A model generated the notes under the pieces. It had not been told where the DNA came from and ran no database searches. It saw only the letters and a program-made list of their open reading frames with translations. From Rhizobium leguminosarum (GTDB lineage: Bacteria; Pseudomonadota; Alphaproteobacteria; Rhizobiales; Rhizobiaceae): a DNA stretch of 64,000 nucleotides. The stretch spans positions 930,001-994,000 of the forward strand of contig NZ_CP025013.1 in assembly GCF_002953715.1 (NCBI RefSeq), read 5' to 3'. Of the stretch, positions 5,619 through 16,607 are shown piece by piece (position 1 is the stretch's first letter; the number at the start of each line of letters is the position of its first letter). A program made the position numbers and the translations under genes.

Positions 5619-6902
5619 TTACTTGGCGGCAAGCGCCTCGTTGACCTTGTCGACGTCGGCACTCATTGCCTTGAAGGTCTCGTCGAGGGAGAGTTCGCCG
5701 ACGATCAGCTGGCTCATCCTCTGGACGATGAGCTGATAGATGGCGGAGGATCCCTTGAGACGTTCCAGGTCCCGGGCTGCCTGCGGCACGCTATTGCGGC
5801 TTCCGAGGAAGACGGCCATCGCTTCCTTGGCATTCTTGCTCTCGAGCTTGTATTGCGGGTCCTTGATGTCGGCGCCCGTCAGGATGACGTAGTTTTCAGC
5901 GATTTCACGCTGGACCTTTTCAGAGCCAAGGAATTCGATGAACGCGGCCACGGCCTCCGGAGACTTGGTGCGCTTGAATCCGACGATCGCGGTGCCACCC
6001 GGCATCGCATAGCAGCCGGCATCGCCGCACGGCGCGCTGATTGCCGTCCAGTCGAAGGCGTCGCCAATCTTCTTCTGGAACGGATTGACCATCCAGTTGC
6101 CGGCGAGATAGGTCACGACGTTGCCGTTGACGAACTCGTCACCCATGTTCTTGTACTGGGTTCCGCCGGCAGCCCCCCACATTTCCTTCGGGAAGGAGCC
6201 GTCCTTCGTCCAGCCGTAGAGATCCGTGACATAGCGCTTGGCGGCATCGTCGGGGAAGAAGAACTTGCCGTCCTTGACGTAGTTCGAGCCGTAGGAGAAT
6301 GCCGCGCCGGAGAAGCGATGGCCCGAGCGATCCATCGTGAAGGGGATCTGGGCACCGGTCGCCTTGGCGACGCGCGCCGAGGCTTCGACGATTTCCTTCA
6401 GCGTGGCGGTGGGCTTCGGAAGCGGTTCGCCGGCCTGTTCGAACAGCGTCTTGTTGACGAAGGGCAGGTTGAAGGTCTGCGACGCGATATAGCCGTTGAT
6501 CGACTGCGGAGCGTTGACGCCGGGGAAACGAAGTGTGTTCAGGCTGTCGCCGTGCAGCTTGGCGAAGCCATCCGGGTCCTTCATGTAGGGACGCATGTCG
6601 AGGTAATAGGGGGCAAGCTGCCAGTCGGTGATTTTGGCGATGTCAGGGCCTTCGCCGACGGCAAGCTGTACCGGCAGCTGCTTGGCGACGGCATCATAGC
6701 CCGAAGAGACGAAATTGACCTTGACGTCGGGATGCGCCGCCTCGAATTCCTTGCTGAGCGCTTCCATCCGTTCGACGTAAGCCTGGTCGTCGTCGGTGAA
6801 GAGAAAGGTGATTGTCTTGGTTTCCGCCATGGCCGCGCCGGACCATGCGAAAGAAACGGTTGCAAGCGCCAGTGCGAAGGCACTTGAGAGATAGGTTTTC
6901 AT
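5619..6902 (-). CDS. ABC transporter solute-binding protein (CUT1 oligosaccharide class)
   Basis: Periplasmic binding protein of the family-1 (maltose-binding-like) class, about 427 residues, with a signal peptide ending near AMA-ETKTITF. Motifs include ALSKEFEAAHPDVKV and GWTKDGSFPKEMWG. Two in-frame ATG codons exist, at 6908 and 6902. The GGGAGG ribosome binding site abuts the first, so the second (spacing about 6) is the likelier start. It diverges from a glycoside-hydrolase operon encoding one ATPase and two permeases but no binding protein, so it almost certainly supplies that transporter. A 16-base palindrome matching one before the opposite operon lies just before its ribosome binding site. 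The presumed ligand is a pectin-derived oligosaccharide, inferred from context. Confidence 0.92.
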   Translation of the reverse strand: MKTYLSSAFALALATVSFAWSGAAMAETKTITFLFTDDDQAYVERMEALSKEFEAAHPDVKVNFVSSGYDAVAKQLPVQLAVGEGPDIAKITDWQLAPYYLDMRPYMKDPDGFAKLHGDSLNTLRFPGVNAPQSINGYIASQTFNLPFVNKTLFEQAGEPLPKPTATLKEIVEASARVAKATGAQIPFTMDRSGHRFSGAAFSYGSNYVKDGKFFFPDDAAKRYVTDLYGWTKDGSFPKEMWGAAGGTQYKNMGDEFVNGNVVTYLAGNWMVNPFQKKIGDAFDWTAISAPCGDAGCYAMPGGTAIVGFKRTKSPEAVAAFIEFLGSEKVQREIAENYVILTGADIKDPQYKLESKNAKEAMAVFLGSRNSVPQAARDLERLKGSSAIYQLIVQRMSQLIVGELSLDETFKAMSADVDKVNEALAAK

Positions 6903-6914
6903 TTTCATCCTCCC

Positions 6915-6930
6915 ATGAAAACATTTTCAT
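6915..6930. promoter_or_regulatory. Operator, copy 1 (LacI-type palindrome)
   Basis: ATGAAAACATTTTCAT, symmetric except for its central CA. It differs by one base from the palindrome at 7056-7071 on the other side of the divergent promoters. TGAAAA-NN-TTTTCA is the usual shape of a LacI-family operator. The likely ligand is the LacI-family protein encoded at 15498-16547. Confidence 0.75.
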
Positions 6931-7055: not shown

Positions 7056-7071
7056 ATGAAAATATTTTCAT
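7056..7071. promoter_or_regulatory. Operator, copy 2 (perfect 16-base palindrome)
   Basis: ATGAAAATATTTTCAT is a perfect palindrome, ten bases before the GGAGG ribosome binding site of the operon's first gene. It has 15 of 16 bases in common with the palindrome at 6915-6930. Confidence 0.8.
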
Positions 7072-7093
7072 AGGATTGCGGAGGAGGCGGTCT

Positions 7094-9616
7094 GTGAAAA
7101 CGGAATGCATCAAGCAGCCGGATGAGATGGTGCCAGCATACAGCGTGGCTGAGGGTCAGACGATAACGGCCTGGGCCGTTTCCGGCCTCATCGCCAGCTA
7201 TTTTCCCGGCGAGCCCGCGCCGGCCGAAGACCGCGTGAACTATCGTTTCATCAACGGTTTCGTTGATGTCGGCGATCTGCCCTGCCGCAAGGCCTTCTGG
7301 TCCACCATGGTGGGGCGGCCGCTCTCCCCCGACACCTCCTGGCCGACCGAAAGCCTCAATCTTCCCGGCTCGAACCGCCGCGTCGAGTTCACCGGCTTCT
7401 GGCATGTGCCGACGCATCTCAGGCGATGGCTGAAAGGCACGTTCAGGACGGAGACTGCGCGAGCGCTCAATCTCAGACTGAAAACCTGCGGCGGCGTTCG
7501 CATATGGGTCAACGGACAAGAAACCGTGCGCTTCGAACCCTTCAAGCGCAATGTCGAGAGCGCAACCGACATCAGCCTGCCACTTAAAGCCGGAGACAAC
7601 CAGATTCTCGTTCACACCGAAGATCTGGCCGAGCGCGACACGACGTGGTTTTTCGAACTCGAGATGCTGGACAAGGAGCCGCTCTGCGTACTGCTCCCCG
7701 TATCGTTGGACCAGGATGAGGTCCGCGAGCTGGAAGCCCTTTCGCGCGGCGTGCGCCCGGCCCGCGACGTCTTCGTCAATCAGCCGCTGGAGATCATATT
7801 CGGCACCGCGCCCGAACGCGACTTGCCTGTCGAGATCAAGGTCATCGGCCATGGTCACGAACGGCCCGTTCTTGCGGACTCCCGATTGACCCTGCGCGCC
7901 CATCAGAGCAGCCTCACGGCCGACGATGTCTGCGGCATTGCGGACGGTTATCACGGCGTCCACATGACGATCGGCTCCGGCACGGGTTCGGTTACGCGCG
8001 TCATCGATGCCGCCTTCATGAGCAGCATTTCGCCGTTGGCATCAGAGACATCGCTCGCCGCCCGCAAGCGACAGGCGCTGGAATACAGCGCCCGCTTCGG
8101 CGCAAACCGGGTCGGGCGCCTCATAGCGATGATGGAAACCGGTCACCACGACCAGGAAAGCTTCGACCGCATCATCGACGCGACGCTCGCCTCCATCGAT
8201 GCGCGGGAGGATTGCTCGGATTTCATCATGGTGCCGCTCTTGTGGCTGCTCGGCGCCTATGCCGACCGGATGCCCGATGCAGTGGTCGCTCGCATTCGGC
8301 ATTCCGTCCGCTCCTATCGTTACTGGGTCGACGAGCCGGGCAACGACGCGATGTGGTTCTGGAGCGAGAACCATGTGCTCTGCTTTCATACGAGCCAGCT
8401 GTTGGCCGGACTTCTTTTGCCCGACGAGGTGTTTTCAGCCTCGGGCAGGACAGGCCGGCAGCAGGCGGAACTTGGCCGCGAGCGGCTCGGGCGCTGGTTC
8501 GACAGCGTCGAAGCCCATGGGTTGGCGGAGTGGAACTCGGCGGCCTATTACCCGATCGACTTCATCGGCCTGCTGGCGCTGGAGCGCTGGGCCGAGACGG
8601 CGATATCAGAGCGCGCCCGCGCCCAGATCGATCTCATCTTCCGCATGATCGCCCTTCATACGCTCGCAGGCGTTCCCGCCGGATCGCAGGGCCGCGCTTA
8701 CGACAAGGAGTTGCGCGCCGGCCCGCTGACCGAGCTCGCGCCCTTCGCCCAGGTCGCCTTCGGAACCGGCTGGCTGAACAACGGCGTCGCTGCATTGACC
8801 ATGTTCTGCGCCGGCGGCTACGAGCCGCCCGCCGATCTGGCCGAGCTTGCGGCGCTCACCCGGTCAAGAAGCGTCGAGGCTCGTTACAGCCAGGGCCTCG
8901 AGAGCGGAAGACTCGTGCTGTTCAAGAATGAGGCGGCGCAGCTTTCGACGGTCGTCGATCACAAGACCGGCCAGAAGGGGCACCAGCAGCATGTCCTCGA
9001 CATCAGGCTGGCCGGCCACCCGATGGCGAGGCTATGGGTCAATCATCCCGGTGAGGACGATCCCTGGGGCAATCAAAGGCCGTCCTATTGGGCCGGCAAC
9101 GGCATCCTGCCGCGCGTTGCCCAGCATCGCGACGTCGCCCTGCTGATCGAGGACACAAGCGACGCACGGCACGCATGGACGCACGCCTACATCGGCCGCG
9201 ACGGCCTGGACGATCTGATCGTCGAAGACAAGTGGCTCATCGCGCGATCGGGCAGGGGATTTTCCGCCCTCTGGGCGTCGAACGGCCTCGAGTTGATCAC
9301 CGACGGCCCGACCGCCGGCCGCGAGGCGCGCTCCTACGGACCGGTTTGCGGCTGGGCTGGTATCGTCGGATGCGGCGATAACGACGCTTTCAAGGCATTC
9401 ACCGAACGCCTGTACCGGACGACGGTTTCCTTCGATCCCGGGCTTCGGCGTCTCTCCCTGACGCCGCCTGGTGGCCCGGCGATCTGCCTGTCCTATGCCG
9501 ACGGTCTTTCGATCGGCGGCGAGGCGAGGCCCTTCACCCACGATCAGCCGCACCCGATCCTCACCCACGACAGTGCAGCCCCCGGCGCCGGCACTGACGG
9601 GCCGTTCTACTCCTAA
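7094..9616 (+). CDS. Unrecognised 840-residue protein of a pectin-oligosaccharide operon
   Basis: I cannot name a family with confidence. The start is taken as GTG 7094, six bases after GGAGGAGG; a TTG at 7076 lies within that site's leader and is less likely. No signal peptide is visible, so it should be cytoplasmic. The N-terminal about 210 residues look like a beta-sandwich resembling the sugar-binding modules of GH2-type enzymes (LRLKTCGGVRIWVNGQE, then LPLKAGDNQILVHTEDL). The middle (about 330-600) is rich in aromatic and acidic residues in predicted helices (WFWSENHVLCFHTSQLLAG; EWNSAAYYPIDFIGLLALE), as in alpha/alpha-toroid hydrolases and lyases. A second beta-rich part follows. It heads an operon with GH88/105 and GH28 enzymes, so an intracellular glycan-cleaving role is plausible but unproven. 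Confidence 0.8.
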   Translation: MKTECIKQPDEMVPAYSVAEGQTITAWAVSGLIASYFPGEPAPAEDRVNYRFINGFVDVGDLPCRKAFWSTMVGRPLSPDTSWPTESLNLPGSNRRVEFTGFWHVPTHLRRWLKGTFRTETARALNLRLKTCGGVRIWVNGQETVRFEPFKRNVESATDISLPLKAGDNQILVHTEDLAERDTTWFFELEMLDKEPLCVLLPVSLDQDEVRELEALSRGVRPARDVFVNQPLEIIFGTAPERDLPVEIKVIGHGHERPVLADSRLTLRAHQSSLTADDVCGIADGYHGVHMTIGSGTGSVTRVIDAAFMSSISPLASETSLAARKRQALEYSARFGANRVGRLIAMMETGHHDQESFDRIIDATLASIDAREDCSDFIMVPLLWLLGAYADRMPDAVVARIRHSVRSYRYWVDEPGNDAMWFWSENHVLCFHTSQLLAGLLLPDEVFSASGRTGRQQAELGRERLGRWFDSVEAHGLAEWNSAAYYPIDFIGLLALERWAETAISERARAQIDLIFRMIALHTLAGVPAGSQGRAYDKELRAGPLTELAPFAQVAFGTGWLNNGVAALTMFCAGGYEPPADLAELAALTRSRSVEARYSQGLESGRLVLFKNEAAQLSTVVDHKTGQKGHQQHVLDIRLAGHPMARLWVNHPGEDDPWGNQRPSYWAGNGILPRVAQHRDVALLIEDTSDARHAWTHAYIGRDGLDDLIVEDKWLIARSGRGFSALWASNGLELITDGPTAGREARSYGPVCGWAGIVGCGDNDAFKAFTERLYRTTVSFDPGLRRLSLTPPGGPAICLSYADGLSIGGEARPFTHDQPHPILTHDSAAPGAGTDGPFYS

Positions 9617-9633: not shown

Positions 9634-10728
9634 ATGAACACAACATCTGTCGATAACGCCGCCCTCCTGACGACGATCGATCGCGTGGCAACGGCTTTCA
9701 GCCGGCTCAGGGGCATCAAGGAAGGTCTCGTGACCGGAAATTCCGCCTCCGGAATCCAGTTCGACGAATGGGACTGGGAAGTCGGCGTCGGTCTTTACGG
9801 CTTCCTGCGGCGTGCCATTTCCACCAATGATCAGAAAGCGCTGGAGGAGCTCGTCGCCTGGTATGCCGGCCAGATCGAACGCGGCCTGCCGCCGCGCCAG
9901 ATCAACAGCACGGCGCCGATGCTGCCGCTTGCGATCCTCGTCCAGCATGTCGACCGTCCCGATTTTCGTGCTCTCGTCGAGGACTGGGCCGAATGGCTCG
10001 TCAAGGAACTGCCCAAGACCGAAGACGGCGGCTTTCAGCACGTCGTCAAGGAGCGCCTCAACGACGGCGAATTGTGGGATGATACGCTTTTCATGGCCTG
10101 CCTGTTTCTCGCCCGGGCCGGCGTGCTCTGCGAGCGCAGCGAATGGATCGACGAGGCTGTCTATCAATTCGTGATCCACACCCGCTACCTCTCCGATCCG
10201 GTCAGCGGGCTCTGGTATCATGGCTGGACCTTCAACGGGCGGCACAATTTCGCCAATGCCTTCTGGGCGCGCGGCAATGCCTGGATCACGGTCGCCATCC
10301 CTGAGCTCTTCGACCTCGTTCCGACGCTCGGCGAGAAGGACCGGCGTTTTCTGTCGAACGTCCTCGTCAGCCAGGTGCGCTCCTTGAAAGCATACCAGCG
10401 GCCGGATGGGATGTTCACGACGCTTCTGGACGATCCGTCTTCGCCGTTGGAAACCTCGGCCACGGCAGGCATTGCCTATGGCATATTGCGCGCCATCGAT
10501 GCCGGTATTCTCGACAAGGACGACAGGGCCTATGCCGAGCGCGCGCTTGCGGCGGTGCTGGCGCAGATCGACGAAGAAGGTGTCGTCCACGGCGTCTCGG
10601 ACGGCACGCCGATGGGCCATGACCTCGATTTCTACAGGCGTATCCCCAACGTGCCGACGCCTTATGGCCAGGCGCTGACCATGCTGCTCCTGACGGAAGT
10701 CTTTCTCGAGAACGGCGAGCGCCAATGA
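9634..10728 (+). CDS. Glycoside hydrolase family 88/105 (unsaturated glucuronyl/galacturonyl hydrolase)
   Basis: Predicted cytoplasmic 364-residue enzyme with the alpha/alpha-barrel motifs of YteR/YesR-like hydrolases: DEWDWEVGVGLYGF near the N-terminus, LWDDTLFMACLFLARAG (about 148-164, containing the Asp pair at the position of the catalytic Asp), WYHGWTF, and FWARGNAWITVAIPEL. Members remove the 4,5-unsaturated uronic acid left at the non-reducing end of oligosaccharides by pectate or rhamnogalacturonan lyases. No signal peptide is visible, so it acts on imported oligosaccharides. It starts 17 bases after the upstream gene, and its TGA overlaps the next gene's ATG (ATGA), indicating translational coupling. 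Confidence 0.9.
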   Translation: MNTTSVDNAALLTTIDRVATAFSRLRGIKEGLVTGNSASGIQFDEWDWEVGVGLYGFLRRAISTNDQKALEELVAWYAGQIERGLPPRQINSTAPMLPLAILVQHVDRPDFRALVEDWAEWLVKELPKTEDGGFQHVVKERLNDGELWDDTLFMACLFLARAGVLCERSEWIDEAVYQFVIHTRYLSDPVSGLWYHGWTFNGRHNFANAFWARGNAWITVAIPELFDLVPTLGEKDRRFLSNVLVSQVRSLKAYQRPDGMFTTLLDDPSSPLETSATAGIAYGILRAIDAGILDKDDRAYAERALAAVLAQIDEEGVVHGVSDGTPMGHDLDFYRRIPNVPTPYGQALTMLLLTEVFLENGERQ

Positions 10729-12089
10729 GCCCCGTGTCTCTTGTCGCGATCGAGCCGGCGGAGGGCGACGATACGGTCCGCCTGCAGGCGGCCATCGACG
10801 GCCTGTCGGCTTCAGGCGGCGGACGCGTGGAGCTCATGGCCGGCATCCATGTCTGCCGCGGGCTCCAGCTCAGATCCGGTGTCGACCTTCATCTGGCCGC
10901 CGGCGCGATCCTGCGTCCCGTTCCGGATTATGCCGCCTATGCGCAGACGACCGTTTCGGTGATCGCCGAAAAGTCGGACCGCGGCATGATCGTCGCCAAG
11001 GATGCACGGCGGATCAGCCTGACGGGGGCGGGGCGCATCGAAGCCGGTTGTGACAGCTTCATTGTGGGAGACGACGAGACGGTGGGAACCTTCATCCCGG
11101 CCGAATTTCGTCCCCGTGTCGTCGTCTTTGAGGGTTGCGACGAGGTCGAGATCAGCTCCGTCCATATTTGCCGCTCGCCGATGTGGACGCTGCACTTCGT
11201 CAACTGCACCGATGTTGCGGTCAGGGACGTGACCATCGACAACGACCGCCGCCTTCCCAATACCGATGGCATCGTGCTGGATGCCTGCCGCGGCGCCGTC
11301 ATCGAGGACTGCCGGATATCGACGGCCGACGACGGCATATGCCTGAAGACGAGCATCGGGCCCGATCGTGTTGCCATCGGGCGATGCGAGAACATTCTTG
11401 TTCGCCGCTGCTCCGTTCAGAGCCTAAGCTGCGCGCTGAAGATCGGCACGGAAACGCATGGCGACGTCACCAATGTCGTGTTCGAGGATTGCAGCGTCAC
11501 ATCCTCCAACAGGGCGCTCGGCGTATTTTCCCGCGACGGCGGCCGGATATCCAACGTGAGGTTTTCGAGAATAGCGGTAGAGTGCCGCGAGACCCCCGAT
11601 GGTTTCTGGGGCTCGGGGGAGGCGCTGACCGTCAATGTTGTCGACCGTGTCACGGAACGCCCGGCGGGCGCCATCGAAAATCTCATCGTCGAGGACATAA
11701 CCGGGTGGATGGAAGGGGCGATCACCGTCATTTCGACCTCGTCGGCCGGCATCGGCAACGCATCGCTGGCGCGCATCGCCTTAGACCAGCAGCCCGGGCA
11801 ACTGGGCACTGCGCGGTCCTACGACCTGCGCCCGACAAACGCGGACCTTTCCCCGAAAGCCGATGGCGGCGGCCGCGCCAATGCCTGGACCCGCGGGTCG
11901 GACGGCCGGGTGATCGGTCTTGAGCATTATCCGGGAGGAATGCCGGCCGTCTACGTGGCGGGGGTCACCGGGATCTTGATGAACGAGGTGCGGATCACAA
12001 GACCGACACCGCTGCCGCAAGGCTGGAACAAAAACGACGCTGTCTTCGAAACGGCGGCACCTGATGGGAGTGGGGCATGGCAGAACTGA
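10725..12089 (+). CDS. Glycoside hydrolase family 28 (polygalacturonase-like)
   Basis: A 454-residue right-handed beta-helix protein of the pectinase family. The conserved NTDG motif appears at about residues 179-182 (LPNTDGIVLD), followed by the paired Asp motif (ADDGICLKT) and a GTETHGD segment where the family has G-H-G. Repeated short beta-strand turns such as VVFEDCSV and NILVRRCSV are typical of beta-helices. No signal peptide is present, which suits an intracellular exo-acting enzyme on imported oligogalacturonide or rhamnogalacturonan fragments. The gene overlaps its upstream neighbour by 4 bases and its downstream neighbour by 13, so the three are one operon. Exact linkage specificity is not readable from sequence. 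Confidence 0.9.
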   Translation: MSPVSLVAIEPAEGDDTVRLQAAIDGLSASGGGRVELMAGIHVCRGLQLRSGVDLHLAAGAILRPVPDYAAYAQTTVSVIAEKSDRGMIVAKDARRISLTGAGRIEAGCDSFIVGDDETVGTFIPAEFRPRVVVFEGCDEVEISSVHICRSPMWTLHFVNCTDVAVRDVTIDNDRRLPNTDGIVLDACRGAVIEDCRISTADDGICLKTSIGPDRVAIGRCENILVRRCSVQSLSCALKIGTETHGDVTNVVFEDCSVTSSNRALGVFSRDGGRISNVRFSRIAVECRETPDGFWGSGEALTVNVVDRVTERPAGAIENLIVEDITGWMEGAITVISTSSAGIGNASLARIALDQQPGQLGTARSYDLRPTNADLSPKADGGGRANAWTRGSDGRVIGLEHYPGGMPAVYVAGVTGILMNEVRITRPTPLPQGWNKNDAVFETAAPDGSGAWQN

Positions 12090-13183
12090 AACTTTCCAAC
12101 GTCAACAAGTCGTATGGCTCTGTCAAAGTCCTGCATGACGTCGAGCTCGATATCAAGGACGGCGAGTTCGTCGTCTTCGTCGGCCCTTCGGGATGCGGCA
12201 AGTCGACACTGTTGCGCGTCATCGCCGGCCTCGAAGAGGTCACGTCGGGCGCAATCGCGATCGGGGCCCGCGACGTTAGCGCGCTCTCGCCGGCCGAGCG
12301 CAAGATTGCAATGGTCTTCCAGTCCTACGCGCTCTATCCGCATATGAGCGTTCGCAAGAACCTCGCTTTCGGCCTGGAGAACCTGAAGTTCAAGCGCGCC
12401 GAGATCGAGGCGCGGATTGCCGAAGCTGCCAGGATGCTGGCGATCGAGCCCTATCTGGACCGACGTCCGAAGCAGCTTTCGGGCGGCCAGCGCCAGCGCG
12501 TGGCGATCGGCCGGGCCATCGTGCGCGAACCTGACATTTTCCTCTTCGACGAGCCGCTGTCCAATCTCGACGCGGCGCTGCGCGTCCAGACCCGGGCTGA
12601 GATCACCAAGCTCCACCGCGACATCAAGACGACGATGATCTATGTCACGCATGACCAGGTCGAGGCGATGACGATGGCCGACAAAATCGTCGTGCTGAGG
12701 GCTGGGCGGGTCGAGCAGGTCGGAGCACCGCTGGATCTGTTCGATAGCCCGCGCAATCTATTCGTCGCGGGCTTCCTCGGCTCGCCGCGCATGAACATCA
12801 TCAAGGGCAAGGTATCAGGCGTCGGCGAAAGCGGCGTTGCCATCGATGTCGGCAACGGCGGCAGCATCGTCAGCGATGTCGATCTCGCCGGCATTGCGGT
12901 CGGCCAGGCCATTCTCGCTGGTATCCGGCCCGCGCATTTTTCACGGTCCAGCGAGCAAGGCCTGCCGTTCATCGTCCAGTATCACGAGGGACTCGGCACC
13001 GAGACCTATGTCTATGGCAACCTTGCGGGCGAGGACGAGCAGATCATCATTCATGAGGCCGGTCATTTCGCGCCGGCGCCTGGTGATCACATCTTGATCG
13101 ACGCCGCCCCGGGGCGGGTTCATCTGTTCGATCCCGAAAGCGGCCTGGCTTTTGCCAGGCGGCCCGGACAGGGGAGGCGCTGA
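12077..13183 (+). CDS. ABC transporter ATP-binding protein, MalK/UgpC class
   Basis: Cytoplasmic ATPase of 368 residues for a CUT1 sugar importer. Walker A is GPSGCGKST (36-44), the signature is LSGGQRQR (about 134) and Walker B is IFLFDEPLSNLD (about 155-166), followed by the switch His in YVTHDQVEAMTMADK. The C-terminal about 130 residues form the TOBE/regulatory domain. Its start lies inside the end of the GH28 gene and the first permease begins 2 bases after its stop, so it drives the operon's own transporter. It may also serve other CUT1 systems, as is common for this class. Confidence 0.95.
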   Translation: MAELKLSNVNKSYGSVKVLHDVELDIKDGEFVVFVGPSGCGKSTLLRVIAGLEEVTSGAIAIGARDVSALSPAERKIAMVFQSYALYPHMSVRKNLAFGLENLKFKRAEIEARIAEAARMLAIEPYLDRRPKQLSGGQRQRVAIGRAIVREPDIFLFDEPLSNLDAALRVQTRAEITKLHRDIKTTMIYVTHDQVEAMTMADKIVVLRAGRVEQVGAPLDLFDSPRNLFVAGFLGSPRMNIIKGKVSGVGESGVAIDVGNGGSIVSDVDLAGIAVGQAILAGIRPAHFSRSSEQGLPFIVQYHEGLGTETYVYGNLAGEDEQIIIHEAGHFAPAPGDHILIDAAPGRVHLFDPESGLAFARRPGQGRR

Positions 13184-13185
13184 AC

Positions 13186-14181
13186 ATGGCGGCGCTCAAG
13201 GCAGGTGCATTGCTGTCCCAGGCAGGCGAAGCGGCGATGAGGGTGGTCGAAGCCCCGATGAATGCGATCGAGCGCATCTTCGGCCGCAAGCGCATGCCGT
13301 GGCTGTTCCTGGCGCCGAACCTCGTTCTGTTCGCCATCTTCACGTTCCTTCCGATCGCGATCGCGATTGGTTACGCCTTCACCGGCGGCACCAATCTTTT
13401 CGTGTCGGAGCGCCCCTTCGTAGGCTTGGACAATTTTCGTACGCTGCTTTCCTGCGGCAATTATCTGCAGCCGGGAACCTGCCAGGAATCGCTGTTCTGG
13501 ACGGCTGTGTGGAACACGCTCTGGTTCGTGGCCTTCAATGTCGTCGCCACATTGCTCGTGGCGTTGATCACGGCGCTGATCCTCAATCGGGCGATCGTCG
13601 CGCGTGGCTTCTTCAGGGCGATGTTCTTCTATCCCGTCTTGCTGTCTCCCGTCGTCATCGGTCTCATCTGGAAATGGTTCCTCGATCGCAACGGGCTCCT
13701 GAACGCTTTCTTCCAGATGATCGGCGTTCCCCCTGAAATCTTCCTGCTCGACGTCGGCTGGTCGCGCTTCTTCGTCGTCGTGGTGTCGGTCTGGTTTCAC
13801 ATGGGTTTTTATACCCTCATTCTGCTCGCCGGCCTCCAGGCCATCCCCAAGGAGCTTTACGAGGCTGCCTCCATCGATGCCGCCTCACCACGCCGCACGC
13901 TGTTCAGGATCACGCTTCCCCTGCTGGCCCCGAACCTCTTAGTCGTGTTCATTCTTTTGATGATCAAATCCGTCCAGATCTTCGACGAGGCCTGGGTTTT
14001 GACCAACGGCGGCGGTCCAGGCACGGCCAACAGCTTCATCGTCCAATATATCTACCAGATGGCATTCGGCAGCGATCTTCGGCTCTTCGGTCTCGCATCC
14101 GCGGCATCGGTTCTCATGGGGCTGGTGCTTCTGGTTCTCACCCTCATACAGCTGCGCATCGGCAAGCGAATGGAGTCCTGA
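13186..14181 (+). CDS. Sugar ABC transporter permease, MalF-like
   Basis: Inner-membrane subunit, 331 residues. It has a cytoplasmic N-terminal stretch, a first transmembrane helix near residues 43-62 (WLFLAPNLVLFAIFTFLPIA) and further helices, with the EAA loop (ELYEAASIDAASPRRTLFRI) near 222-241 that contacts the ATPase. A short periplasmic segment around SCGNYLQPGTCQ carries two Cys residues. The gene follows the ATPase by 2 bases and precedes the second permease by 1. With that permease, the ATPase and the divergently encoded binding protein it completes a four-part importer. Confidence 0.95.
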   Translation: MAALKAGALLSQAGEAAMRVVEAPMNAIERIFGRKRMPWLFLAPNLVLFAIFTFLPIAIAIGYAFTGGTNLFVSERPFVGLDNFRTLLSCGNYLQPGTCQESLFWTAVWNTLWFVAFNVVATLLVALITALILNRAIVARGFFRAMFFYPVLLSPVVIGLIWKWFLDRNGLLNAFFQMIGVPPEIFLLDVGWSRFFVVVVSVWFHMGFYTLILLAGLQAIPKELYEAASIDAASPRRTLFRITLPLLAPNLLVVFILLMIKSVQIFDEAWVLTNGGGPGTANSFIVQYIYQMAFGSDLRLFGLASAASVLMGLVLLVLTLIQLRIGKRMES

Positions 14182-14182
14182 G

Positions 14183-15229
14183 ATGAACCCGATCAGCTTT
14201 TTCACGCGCACACGCCGGGCCGGACGCATCGATATAACCGACATATTGTCATGGGTCTGGCTGATCGGCGGAACCTTCGTGGTGTTGCTTCCGGTCCTCT
14301 GGGCAGGTCTCTCCTCGCTGAAGCCGGCCGCTGAGATCACCCGGTTTCCGCCGTCGCTGCTTCCCCGGACCGCGGTGGAGCAGACCGTGCCCGGCTTCGA
14401 CAAGCCGCTCAGCCTCTGGCAGGTCAACGTCGACGGCCAGTTGCGCGAAATGGCCATGGTCCGCCGCATAGGCCTCAAGGCCCAGATGGTCGACCCCGCA
14501 AATCCGGGACAGCCCGTCAGCGTCGACGTAAAGGGGATGACGCCGGTGCAGAGGCTGACGGTCGCCACGCAGAATTACACCGATCCGCTGACGCGCTTCA
14601 ACTTCCTGACCTTCCTCAAGAATTCGGTATTCGTCACATTCGTCGCAACGCTTCTGACGCTGATCGTCAACGCCATGGCGGCCTTTGCCCTGTCGAAATA
14701 CAAATTTGCTGGTGATACGACGGTCTTCGTCATCATCATTTCGACGTTGATGATCCCGCTCGCCGTCGTCATGGTGCCGGCCTATCTCGTCATCGTCGGG
14801 GTCGGGCTTGCCGACAACCTCTGGGGCGTCATCCTGCCGACGGTCGCCTCTCCGACCGCTGTCTTCCTGCTGCGGCAATATATGCTGACCATACCCGACG
14901 AGCTGATAGAGGCGGCGCGGGTCGATGCGGCAAGCGAATTCTGCATCTTCTGGCGCATTATCCTGCCGCTGACGGCGCCGGCTCTCGCAGTGCTGGCGAT
15001 CTTTTCGGTGCTCTGGCGGTGGAACGATTTCCTCTGGCCGCTCATCGTCCTCAACAGCCGCGAGAATTTCACCCTGCAGGTCGGTCTGAATGCGTTCCAG
15101 GGCGAGTTCTCGGTGCAGTGGCACTATATCCTGGCGATGACGTTCCTCAGCCTGCTGCCTGTCACCGTCGTTTTCCTGTTCCTGCAGAAGTACATCACCA
15201 CGGGGATCGCCGGAACAGGCATGAAATGA
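14183..15229 (+). CDS. Sugar ABC transporter permease, MalG-like
   Basis: Second inner-membrane subunit, 348 residues. After the first helix (near 27-47) there is an unusually long extracytoplasmic segment of about 100 residues (roughly 50-150) before the remaining five helices. The EAA loop reads ELIEAARVDAASEFCIFWRI (near 240-259), with a Cys where most relatives have a hydrophobic or polar residue. The C-terminus (QKYITTGIAGTGMK) is typical of MalG-like subunits. It is the last gene of the operon; a hairpin terminator lies about 75 bases beyond. Confidence 0.95.
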   Translation: MNPISFFTRTRRAGRIDITDILSWVWLIGGTFVVLLPVLWAGLSSLKPAAEITRFPPSLLPRTAVEQTVPGFDKPLSLWQVNVDGQLREMAMVRRIGLKAQMVDPANPGQPVSVDVKGMTPVQRLTVATQNYTDPLTRFNFLTFLKNSVFVTFVATLLTLIVNAMAAFALSKYKFAGDTTVFVIIISTLMIPLAVVMVPAYLVIVGVGLADNLWGVILPTVASPTAVFLLRQYMLTIPDELIEAARVDAASEFCIFWRIILPLTAPALAVLAIFSVLWRWNDFLWPLIVLNSRENFTLQVGLNAFQGEFSVQWHYILAMTFLSLLPVTVVFLFLQKYITTGIAGTGMK

Positions 15230-15302
15230 ACGGCGAGGCGGGGAGAAAGATCTCTTCGCAACCGCCGAAAGAACCCATATCGCCTCTTCCTCCCGGCTGA
15301 AG

Positions 15303-15338
15303 CGCGTCGCATTGAACTTGTTTCATGCGGCGCGTTTT
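15303..15338 (+). terminator. Terminator of the pectin-oligosaccharide operon
   Basis: CGCGTCGCAT (15303-15312) pairs with ATGCGGCGCG (15325-15334), ten base pairs including one G-T, with a 12-base loop and TTTT directly after it; a second T-rich stretch follows at 15346-15351. The rest of 15230-15497 shows no gene. Confidence 0.75.
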
Positions 15339-15497
15339 GGTCGTTGTTTTTGTGCATGGCTCCCAAAGCCGCCGGCCATTTTTCGAGCGACATGCACCAT
15401 GGCCTGGGCACTGAGGTTCACACTTGATCGCCTGGACCTCTCCAATTCCGTTTTACGAAAATGCCGGGAATACAGCATAACGCCCGGAACTAGACAT

Positions 15498-16547
15498 CTA
15501 GCGCGGCGGTGCGACGCTGCCGCGCAGGACGAGGTGGCATCCGAGTTCCAGGCGATGGGCCGGCCGCTGCGGATCGTTGGCGATCAACCGCTGTTCGATG
15601 AGCGCCAAGGCGGCAGCGCCGAGCCTGTCTGTGGGAACGCTGATCGTCGAAAGCGGCGGACGGCTGAATTCGCCGGGGACGATGTCGTCGAACCCCAGGA
15701 CAGAAATCGCTTCGGGCACGCGGATGTCGCGATCGGCCAATGCCTTCAGGCAGCCGAGCGCCAGATTGTCGGCCGCGCAGAAGACGGCGGTCGCCCCTTT
15801 CATCGTGGGATCGCGGTCGAGCAGTGCGTTGATAGCAGCCTCGCCGTGCCGGGGCTCATATCCCTCTGCCTCGACGATCATATCGTCAGGCACGGGAAGC
15901 TGCGCGGCGAAATAGGCATCGGAAAAGCCGTCATATCGGCGCTGGATCGTCGTGCGGCCCTTCCAGGTCAGGTGCAGGATACGGCGATGCCCGAGCGCCA
16001 GCAGGTGCTCGATGCCGAGCCGCGCTCCGAAGCGGTTTTCGGGGGTGACCGTATCGACCAGCATGGCGGGGTCTTCGCCGTTGACGATGACGACCGGCAT
16101 ATCGGGGGAGGCGAGGCTTCGGATCAGTTCCGGCTGATCGTCGTTCAGGACCACGATGCCGTCGGCACGTTCCGAGAGCGCGATCTGCCTGACCTGGGCG
16201 CCGTCGATACGCCGGCCGGTGCTAACGAAGGGTACGATCCTGATGCCGCGGCGTTCGCACTCCCTGCGAAGACCGTTGAGGATCGTCCAACTCACCAGAT
16301 TGAGATCGCTCTCCGGTGCGGCATCGTCGGGAATCGCAAGAAGCAGGACGCGCAAGGTCGCGATCGTCGCCTTCTTCCTCCGGCGGTCGAGGTAACCCAG
16401 GCGTTTTGCCGAATCCAGAACCCTTTCACGCACCTCGATCGTCAGCGGCGCGGTTCCGTTCAGTGCGTGTGAGGCCGTGCTCAGCGATACGTCAGCATCG
16501 CGCGCGACATCCTTCAGATTGACTTTGCGTTCCACTTTTTCCGTCAC
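15498..16547 (-). CDS. LacI-family transcriptional repressor
   Basis: A 349-residue regulator. The N-terminal helix-turn-helix reads VNLKDVARDADVSLSTASHA (about 9-28), followed by the hinge helix region and a periplasmic-binding-protein-like effector domain (LALGHRRILHLTW; FGARLGIEHL; VLGFDDIVPGEF). It is convergent with the glycan operon and is the only DNA-binding protein near it, so it is the probable binder of the palindromes at 6915 and 7056. The start is GTG 16547; a GTG at 16535 is an alternative because neither has a strong ribosome binding site. The inducer would be an imported oligosaccharide or breakdown product; this is inference. Confidence 0.93.
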   Translation of the reverse strand: MTEKVERKVNLKDVARDADVSLSTASHALNGTAPLTIEVRERVLDSAKRLGYLDRRRKKATIATLRVLLLAIPDDAAPESDLNLVSWTILNGLRRECERRGIRIVPFVSTGRRIDGAQVRQIALSERADGIVVLNDDQPELIRSLASPDMPVVIVNGEDPAMLVDTVTPENRFGARLGIEHLLALGHRRILHLTWKGRTTIQRRYDGFSDAYFAAQLPVPDDMIVEAEGYEPRHGEAAINALLDRDPTMKGATAVFCAADNLALGCLKALADRDIRVPEAISVLGFDDIVPGEFSRPPLSTISVPTDRLGAAALALIEQRLIANDPQRPAHRLELGCHLVLRGSVAPPR

Positions 16548-16580
16548 GAATTGAGGCTGTACCTTCGAAGGTATGGCTAA

Positions 16581-16607
16581 CTCAATGTTTTTACATAAAA
16601 ACTTGAG
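16581..16607. promoter_or_regulatory. Palindrome upstream of the LacI-family gene
   Basis: GTTTTTACATAAAAAC (16587-16602) is symmetric at 7 of 8 paired positions. It is flanked by CTCAA (16581) and TTGAG (16603), which also pair. It sits 34 bases before the GTG start and could be an autoregulatory site. Its sequence differs from the palindromes at 6915 and 7056, so a shared binder is uncertain. Confidence 0.5.

Follow-up and report, generated by a model that had tools for sequence, protein, structure and literature searches.

We analysed 64,000 nucleotides of Rhizobium leguminosarum DNA (assembly GCF_002953715.1, contig NZ_CP025013.1, positions 930,001-994,000), referred to here as the window, in which all coordinates are counted unless stated otherwise. 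On its forward strand a gene at 7094-9616 encodes an 840-residue protein, termed X, which we describe as a candidate cytoplasmic oligo-uronide lyase on the basis of its open reading frame with a ribosome-binding site, the lack of any family match and structural models. Translation likely starts at the GTG at 7094, with a GGAGGAGG site ahead of it, and ends at the stop codon 9614-9616; a longer form starting with the TTG at 7076 is possible. When 84,980 species genomes were scanned for X, 509 stretches were confirmed, the 80 best of which were retained (counts out of 80 refer to these), and the reading frame is kept in these loci, which belong to Rhizobium, Agrobacterium, Sinorhizobium, Neorhizobium and others. 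Since the ratio of nonsynonymous to synonymous substitution rates (dN/dS) was 0.099-0.141 in four comparisons with Rhizobium loci, X is, as judged from its sequence evolution, a real protein under selection, confirming the 840-residue reading frame given for the forward strand in a preliminary description of this DNA.

X is followed on the same strand by the genes for a GH105 protein (9634-10728; GH88 in Pfam, 'beta-galactosidase BglB' in NCBIfam), which is a candidate unsaturated uronyl hydrolase, a GH28 protein (10725-12089; PglB, polygalacturonase, in NCBIfam), and the MalK-type ATPase (12077-13183) and two permeases (13186-14181 and 14183-15229) of an ATP-binding cassette (ABC) importer. 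The names PglA and PglB are said to come from Mathews et al. in 2019, a study taken up in the review PMC6683767. The operon of GH88/105, GH28 and sugar importer genes proposed in the preliminary description is thus borne out, with the importer being of the MalK/F/G type. It is accompanied by a gene for a LacI-family protein on the reverse strand (15498-16547), the probable regulator of the X unit. In several Rhizobium strains (L066, L067 and L074-L077) this gene lies ~2.3-3.1 kb farther from the last permease than in L065 and L068, as if an insertion or loss had occurred between the two. The substrate-binding protein of the importer (SBP_bac_1), previously unmentioned, is encoded on the reverse strand at 5619-6908, so that its gene and X are divergent and have a common control region. 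LacI and binding protein were each matched at >200 bits in 70/80 loci.

The divergent promoter region contains two operator-like palindromes, ATGAAAACATTTTCAT on the binding-protein side (6915-6930) and ATGAAAATATTTTCAT on the X side (7056-7071), the sole two such sites in the window. The core motif TGAAAA..TTTTCA lies no more than 260 bp ahead of X in 60 of 79 loci, the other 19 lacking an exact copy, and does not recur elsewhere in the 1754 kb of those loci; it is likely that the LacI protein reads this site. A promoter and terminator scan gave a result at chance level. The peak N-terminal hydropathy was 1.78 for X, 1.12 for GH105 and 1.10 for GH28; the binding protein, whose export signal looks typical by eye, reached 2.10. 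X is presumably cytoplasmic, although the hydropathy gap to the binding protein is modest.

Relatives and gene partners of X

In a tree of X proteins two clades, A, containing the window protein, and B, are split with a support of 100/100, the tree program warning of long branches, foremost L150. All 80 retained loci belong to clade A by identity (at least 49%), and clade B proteins are 28-36% identical to the window X. The window genome carries one copy of each clade, A on contig C2 and B on contig C1. Matches to X were found in 12/61 relatives, in 30/199 genomes of the same family, among them G183 with a weak partial match (E-value 6.6e-4), in 1/289 genomes sampled from the class, namely the window genome itself, and in 6/299 sampled from the phylum, two of which lie outside the class.

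GH105 adjoins X downstream on the same strand in 77/80 clade A loci, L128 being a short contig, and GH28 is present in 73/80 (>200 bits). Since the transporters vary among loci, being of the Opp type in L134, L138-L142 and L054, GH105 is the steadier partner of X. Co-occurrence was counted in what are, judging by the printed handles, the same 199 family genomes, using cut-offs of E ≤ 1e-3 for X and E ≤ 1e-20 for GH105: 29 genomes carry both, one (G111) carries GH105 alone, one (G183) the weak partial X alone, and 168 carry neither. The 29 genomes are related to one another and thus do not represent 29 independent events. Some loci hold further genes next to X. In L138-L142 a protein of ~410 residues (8775-10001 in L139), with a weak HAD-type match under the Pfam cut-off, is encoded between the Opp-type importer and X; GH36 and GH42 genes lie upstream of X in L121; and in L054, where GH105 is missing, X is followed by genes for a GH38 alpha-mannosidase-like protein and a CehA/McbA-type metallohydrolase (12385-16592 of that locus).

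Neighbourhoods of 16.5-20 kb were analysed for 23 clade B copies. GH105 and KduI are both part of the cluster in 20 of them, 19 of these having the order GH105-KduI-X, and NCBIfam assigned KduI in three of three proteins checked. L213, a locus outside the class, shows the order X-GH105-KduD-KduI. Of the three same-genus loci in this set, L224 has the GH105-KduI pair and L049 and L050 do not. L049, the clade B copy of the window genome (G000 contig C1, ~1786574), has an importer and a LacI gene nearby, and UxuA-type and DHDPS-type genes ~7-9 kb off. A tblastn search of these 23 loci at E 1e-10 detected no GH28, and the window genome contains three KduI-family genes, none of them close to X. KduI and KduD process 5-keto-4-deoxyuronate. 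GH105 and GH88 enzymes need a 4,5-unsaturated end, according to an excerpt of PMC8511951, where 5-keto-4-deoxyuronate is the GH105 product. With GH105 and KduI in clade B, consumers of 4,5-unsaturated uronate thus travel with X.

In the PDB the window GH105 matched YteR (1nc5, E 7.9e-14) and, more strongly, other GH105 structures (3qwt, E 1.4e-88). Together with the Pfam family and the KduI neighbours in clade B, these GH105/YteR-type matches suggest that the name 'beta-galactosidase BglB' for 9634-10728 may mislead. For the GH28 neighbour, 5olp, labelled 'Pectate lyase' (E 4.5e-25), came first among the PDB matches, followed by 3jur, an exo-polygalacturonosidase. Among the neighbour proteins scanned with Pfam or NCBIfam, which did not comprise all neighbours, none was assigned to a lyase family. 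In G140 (contig C14, 40062-41003 and 44866-45339) a second GH105 gene and one for a heparinase II/III-type protein are ~4 kb apart, a pairing similar to that of X and GH105 but with a known lyase-type family.

Predicted fold and candidate active site

The novelty of X was judged against Pfam, NCBIfam, PDB and literature searches. All Pfam matches of X had E-values of at least 0.2, NCBIfam gave none at E ≤ 1, and 29 relatives scanned singly against Pfam reached a best E of 0.017, with matches scattered among members. Both phmmer with X and a profile of the 29 relatives returned chance rows only from the PDB; neither reached the PL15 structure 3A0O, the PL35 structures 8KHV and 8KHW or the GH154-type structures 8oi4, 9o4u and 9nwf at E ≤ 10. 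Alginate_lyase and Hepar_II_III_C, the Pfam domains looked for in the case of PL17, are absent at E ≤ 1 from the families of the 29 members. By hhalign, X did not match heparinase II/III or one Alginate_lyase-domain protein, and the match to PL15 (E 0.067 over 32 residues) is not significant, the profiles in all three comparisons being shallow (Neff, the number of effective sequences, 1.0-2.9) and the test therefore weak. Among 133 plasmid records matching X, the 20 listed comprise six annotated as 'hypothetical protein', 13 unannotated and one featureless. No paper describing X was found among the literature matches listed, as judged by titles and the beginnings of abstracts, and the excerpts of PMC11103875 and PMC6421345 do not mention the operon. 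The preliminary description had left X outside the named families, and this holds for Pfam, NCBIfam and PDB sequences; X is probably the founding member of an undescribed enzyme family.

AlphaFold2 modelling of full-length X with 29 sequences gave a mean predicted local distance difference test score (pLDDT) of 85.3, a predicted template modelling score (pTM) of 0.86 and a three-part layout. The N-terminal part is predicted to consist of a beta-sandwich resembling GH2 sugar-binding and PA14 domains (residues ~19-205, 7148-7708; VIA-align placed GH2-type and PA14 sandwiches between model residues 5 and 207) and an Ig/FN3-like domain (residues ~219-310, 7748-8023; rows 4g5a, 5n47 and 9nqo). A putative helical toroid (residues ~318-592, 8045-8869) and an antiparallel C-terminal beta domain (residues ~594-815, 8873-9538) follow, both defined by the models and their fold matches to lyases. 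Over residues 318-810 VIA-align of full-length X listed chondroitinase, PL35, dermatan sulfate epimerase, PL17 and PL39 structures. For some of these matched structures the family names are those of an excerpt of PMC12088678. The layout of a sugar-binding-like sandwich, a helical toroid and a C-terminal beta-rich part proposed earlier is thus supported by the model and VIA-align.

A Foldseek search with the whole of X gave 50 rows of GH2-type enzymes with query TM-scores of ~0.10-0.14, reflecting the N-terminal sandwich, and was discarded; because the sandwich dominated this search, residues 312-820 were folded separately (pLDDT 85.8, pTM 0.88). Foldseek matched this module at E ≤ 0.001 to 23 chains, every one of them a two-domain toroid/beta-sheet lyase and together representing 12 enzymes counted by title, which is what became of the structure prediction and fold search named as a check in the preliminary description. 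The top row was the PL35 chain 8khv (E 4.8e-8, query TM-score 0.37), and the 23 chains include the PL15 enzyme Atu3025 (3afl_A, E 1.6e-6, probability 1.00, though with a query TM-score of 0.39) and the PL17 enzyme Alg17c (4ok2_B, E 7.8e-7, query TM-score 0.43). VIA-align of the same module listed lyases in 45/50 rows, though a single hyaluronate lyase accounts for many of these through repeated entries. The remaining five were one epimerase, one GH154 protein, two glucuronate dehydratases and 5noa, which is titled a lyase in that listing and named a family 88 hydrolase in the GH105 search of the PDB. The best Z-score was 11.1 over 393 residues; 8khw reached Z 11.1 and Alg17c (4ojz) Z 11.0 over 432 residues. 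The models therefore suggest that the X module and the lyases have a common two-domain arrangement but are strongly diverged, with no close kinship. A relation to PL26 was considered; none of the 50 rows listed each by Foldseek and VIA-align carries a PL26 title, which does not exclude that family.

The motifs FWSENHVLCF and EWNSAAYYPID, pointed out in the preliminary description, are present as residues 422-431 and 479-489, and N426, H427, E479, N481, Y485 and D489 are invariant in 29/29 aligned proteins. N426 and H427 (codons 8369-8374), candidates for carboxylate neutraliser and base, and Y485 (codon 8546-8548), the candidate catalytic acid/base, are also invariant in 32/32 rows of a second alignment, which overlaps the first and contains three duplicates. 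Y485 lies 59 residues past N426 and 58 past H427. In the excerpt of PMC12088678, Table 4 gives the lyase pairs N192-Y246, N187-Y241, N189-Y243, N240-Y294, H311-Y365, N336/H337-Y390, N201-Y258, H202-Y257, N186/H187-Y239 and N183-Y242, with spacings of 52-59 residues, and the widest pairs, N236-Y299 (PL23) and D398-Y461 (2Q1F), are both 63 apart; the Asn serves as neutraliser and the Tyr as acid or base in these enzymes. The spacing in X falls within this range of 52-63 from neutraliser or His to Tyr, and N426, H427 and Y485 may play corresponding roles. A PL15 enzyme needs its Tyr, the His being required chiefly for one uronate configuration, as an excerpt of PMC11921355 states.

The third motif of the preliminary description, HQQH (residues 630-633, codons 8981-8992), occupies by strand order in the model the putative place of the beta-domain His of the lyases. 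It is present in X and in 20/20 clade A rows; as a family-wide key motif it did not hold, since 0/13 clade B rows (10 distinct proteins) contain it, YQET taking its place. Both H630 and H633 are confined to clade A, and G629 and Q631 are the only positions within 629-633 that are invariant across the clades. H651 (codon 9044-9046, in NHPGE) is invariant in the alignments and lies where the following strand ends in the secondary structure of the model. It was at first a candidate for the catalytic His of the beta domain, since 166 residues separate it from Y485, just as they separate H531 from Y365 in Atu3025, and was dropped as strand order puts the equivalent position at 629-633.

Proposed function of X and alternative explanations

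From the fold matches, the invariant spacing of N426/H427/Y485 and the partnership with GH105 and KduI we conclude, with moderate confidence, that X is a cytoplasmic oligo-uronide lyase and the founder of an undescribed family in the group of lyases with a toroid and an antiparallel beta-sheet. All three lines suggest that X forms 4,5-unsaturated uronate for GH105 in the cytoplasm. Pectin-derived oligosaccharides, released extracellularly, would enter through the ABC importer and be bound by X between toroid and beta domain, where N426, with H427, would hold the carboxylate of a 4-linked uronate. The C5 proton would be taken by H427 or Y485 and Y485 would protonate the leaving oxygen, the bond to O4 being broken by beta-elimination; on stereochemical reasoning galacturonate would have to undergo anti-elimination, for which a His like H427 would be a suitable base. 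The resulting 4,5-unsaturated uronyl end would be hydrolysed by the adjacent GH105, whose product, 5-keto-4-deoxyuronate, would pass to KduI and KduD, and saturated galacturonate ends would be removed by GH28. The activity on imported rhamnogalacturonan fragments suggested in the preliminary description stands in so far as imported uronide oligosaccharides are the best reading, now narrowed to beta-elimination. Rhamnogalacturonan itself is one of two candidates, as the presence of GH28 and the pectin-related names speak for oligosaccharides of rhamnogalacturonan or of galacturonan as the presumed clade A substrate; that of clade B may differ.

Several observations argue against a lyase. X has no sequence homology to any lyase detectable by Pfam, NCBIfam, PDB profile or hhalign. 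Foldseek TM-scores are 0.29-0.49 with root mean square deviations of 10-15.5 Å across the whole module, and Z-scores of 8.6-11.1 lie only moderately above the 7-8 that the tool's own note gives for models lacking a clear match, and mostly helical models can score higher. The beta-domain His of the lyases is without a family-wide counterpart, HQQH being limited to clade A and H651 lying elsewhere in the strand order. GH105 is missing from the clade A loci L138 and L141 and from L054, X and GH105 are on separate contigs in G146, and the clade B loci L049, L050 and L059 lack GH105 and KduI in the cluster. Finally, going by the label of 5olp, the GH28 neighbour might also be called a lyase, though Pfam says GH28, and NCBIfam calls the GH105 neighbour a beta-galactosidase.

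The main rival, which we consider unlikely, is that X is an oligosaccharide uronate dehydratase, removing water from a saturated non-reducing-end uronate and leaving the glycosidic bond intact, so that an unsaturated residue is provided for GH105. It owes this rank to known dehydratases that fill the same slot, GH154/BcGDH and P29_PDnc feeding GH88/GH105 in the excerpts of PMC12269599 and PMC8511951, respectively, and to the GH154 member BT3677, which has a second domain reaching the active site (PMC12269599, excerpt). Importer substrates made by hydrolases would, moreover, carry saturated ends, and the GH154-type structures 8oi4, 9o4u and 9nwf are among the VIA-align fold matches of X. However, these solved chains align with the toroid only, over 225-245 residues, whereas the two-domain lyases match the whole module, over 364-443 residues, which leads us to favour a lyase over a dehydratase; the second domain of BT3677 weakens this argument. 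P29_PDnc also differs from the N-H-Y set of X in needing Asp, Arg and Lys, the tested Tyr being dispensable, as far as the excerpt of PMC8511951 goes.

A glycoside hydrolase built on a toroid domain is an improbable identity for X. GH146, GH63 and GH38 chains do occur lower in the Foldseek list of residues 312-820 and the N-terminal sandwich is like that of GH2 enzymes, but those rows, with E > 0.005 and query TM-scores not exceeding 0.23, rank beneath every one of the 23 lyase rows, and the tight GH105/KduI linkage points to unsaturated uronate rather than a hydrolase product. It is highly improbable that X epimerises uronates at C5 in the manner of dermatan sulfate epimerase 1. The structure of that enzyme, 6hzn, does rank among the top VIA-align matches (Z 10.8, 437 residues), but epimerisation yields no unsaturated end and would leave the GH105 and KduI partners unexplained.

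More tentatively, and with some doubt, X may have a two-domain lyase fold whose usual beta-domain His was lost or moved, acting as exo-lyase or dehydratase on the ends of imported pectic oligosaccharides. The family, new and common to rhizobia and agrobacteria, would then comprise two clades acting on different uronides. If X is a lyase, a hypothetical protein would found a new lyase family and, in alphaproteobacteria associated with plants, supply the step missing between the importer of oligosaccharides and GH105/KduI; the pectic fragments taken up by rhizobia at the root and the chemistry, lyase or dehydratase, served by the X fold would then become testable.

Comparison with known systems

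The three best Foldseek rows are the PL35 GAGases 8KHV and 8KHW and the chondroitinase 9O3Q, which combine a toroid with a beta-sheet as X does. We take 9O3Q to be BcPL35. The entry is named in PMC12269599. The Asn neutraliser and Tyr of PL35 (N192 and Y246; PMC12088678, excerpt) have a spacing similar to that in X. In contrast to PL35, with which sequence similarity is undetectable, X carries a further two beta domains at its N-terminus and has no family-wide counterpart of the beta-domain His.

The PL15 exo-oligoalginate lyase Atu3025 (3A0O, 3AFL) shares with X the order of N-terminal beta part, toroid and beta-sheet, and its H311-Y365 spacing is 54 as compared to 58 in X, as far as the excerpted sources describe it. 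It has YDSH where X has SENH, the hhalign match is insignificant, and a link to alginate is unsupported by the X operons. The PL17 oligoalginate lyase Alg17c (4NEI, 4OJZ) shares its fold with X over 432 residues (Z 11.0), and N201 and Y258 are 57 residues apart (PMC12088678, excerpt), N426 and Y485 being separated by 59. X lacks a Pfam Alginate_lyase match, however, and hhalign to one Alginate_lyase-domain protein fails.

In the excerpts of PMC12269599 and PMC8511951, GH154/BcGDH and P29_PDnc make the unsaturated ends for GH88/GH105, the role proposed here for X. The solved GH154-type chains align to the toroid of X alone, and the comparison with P29_PDnc is one of residues, not of structure. 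In Bacillus subtilis the rhamnogalacturonan lyase PL11, a beta-propeller, is paired with the GH105 enzyme YteR. Although the fold of X differs from that of PL11, the two pairings would work alike, with the lyase product being handed to GH105.

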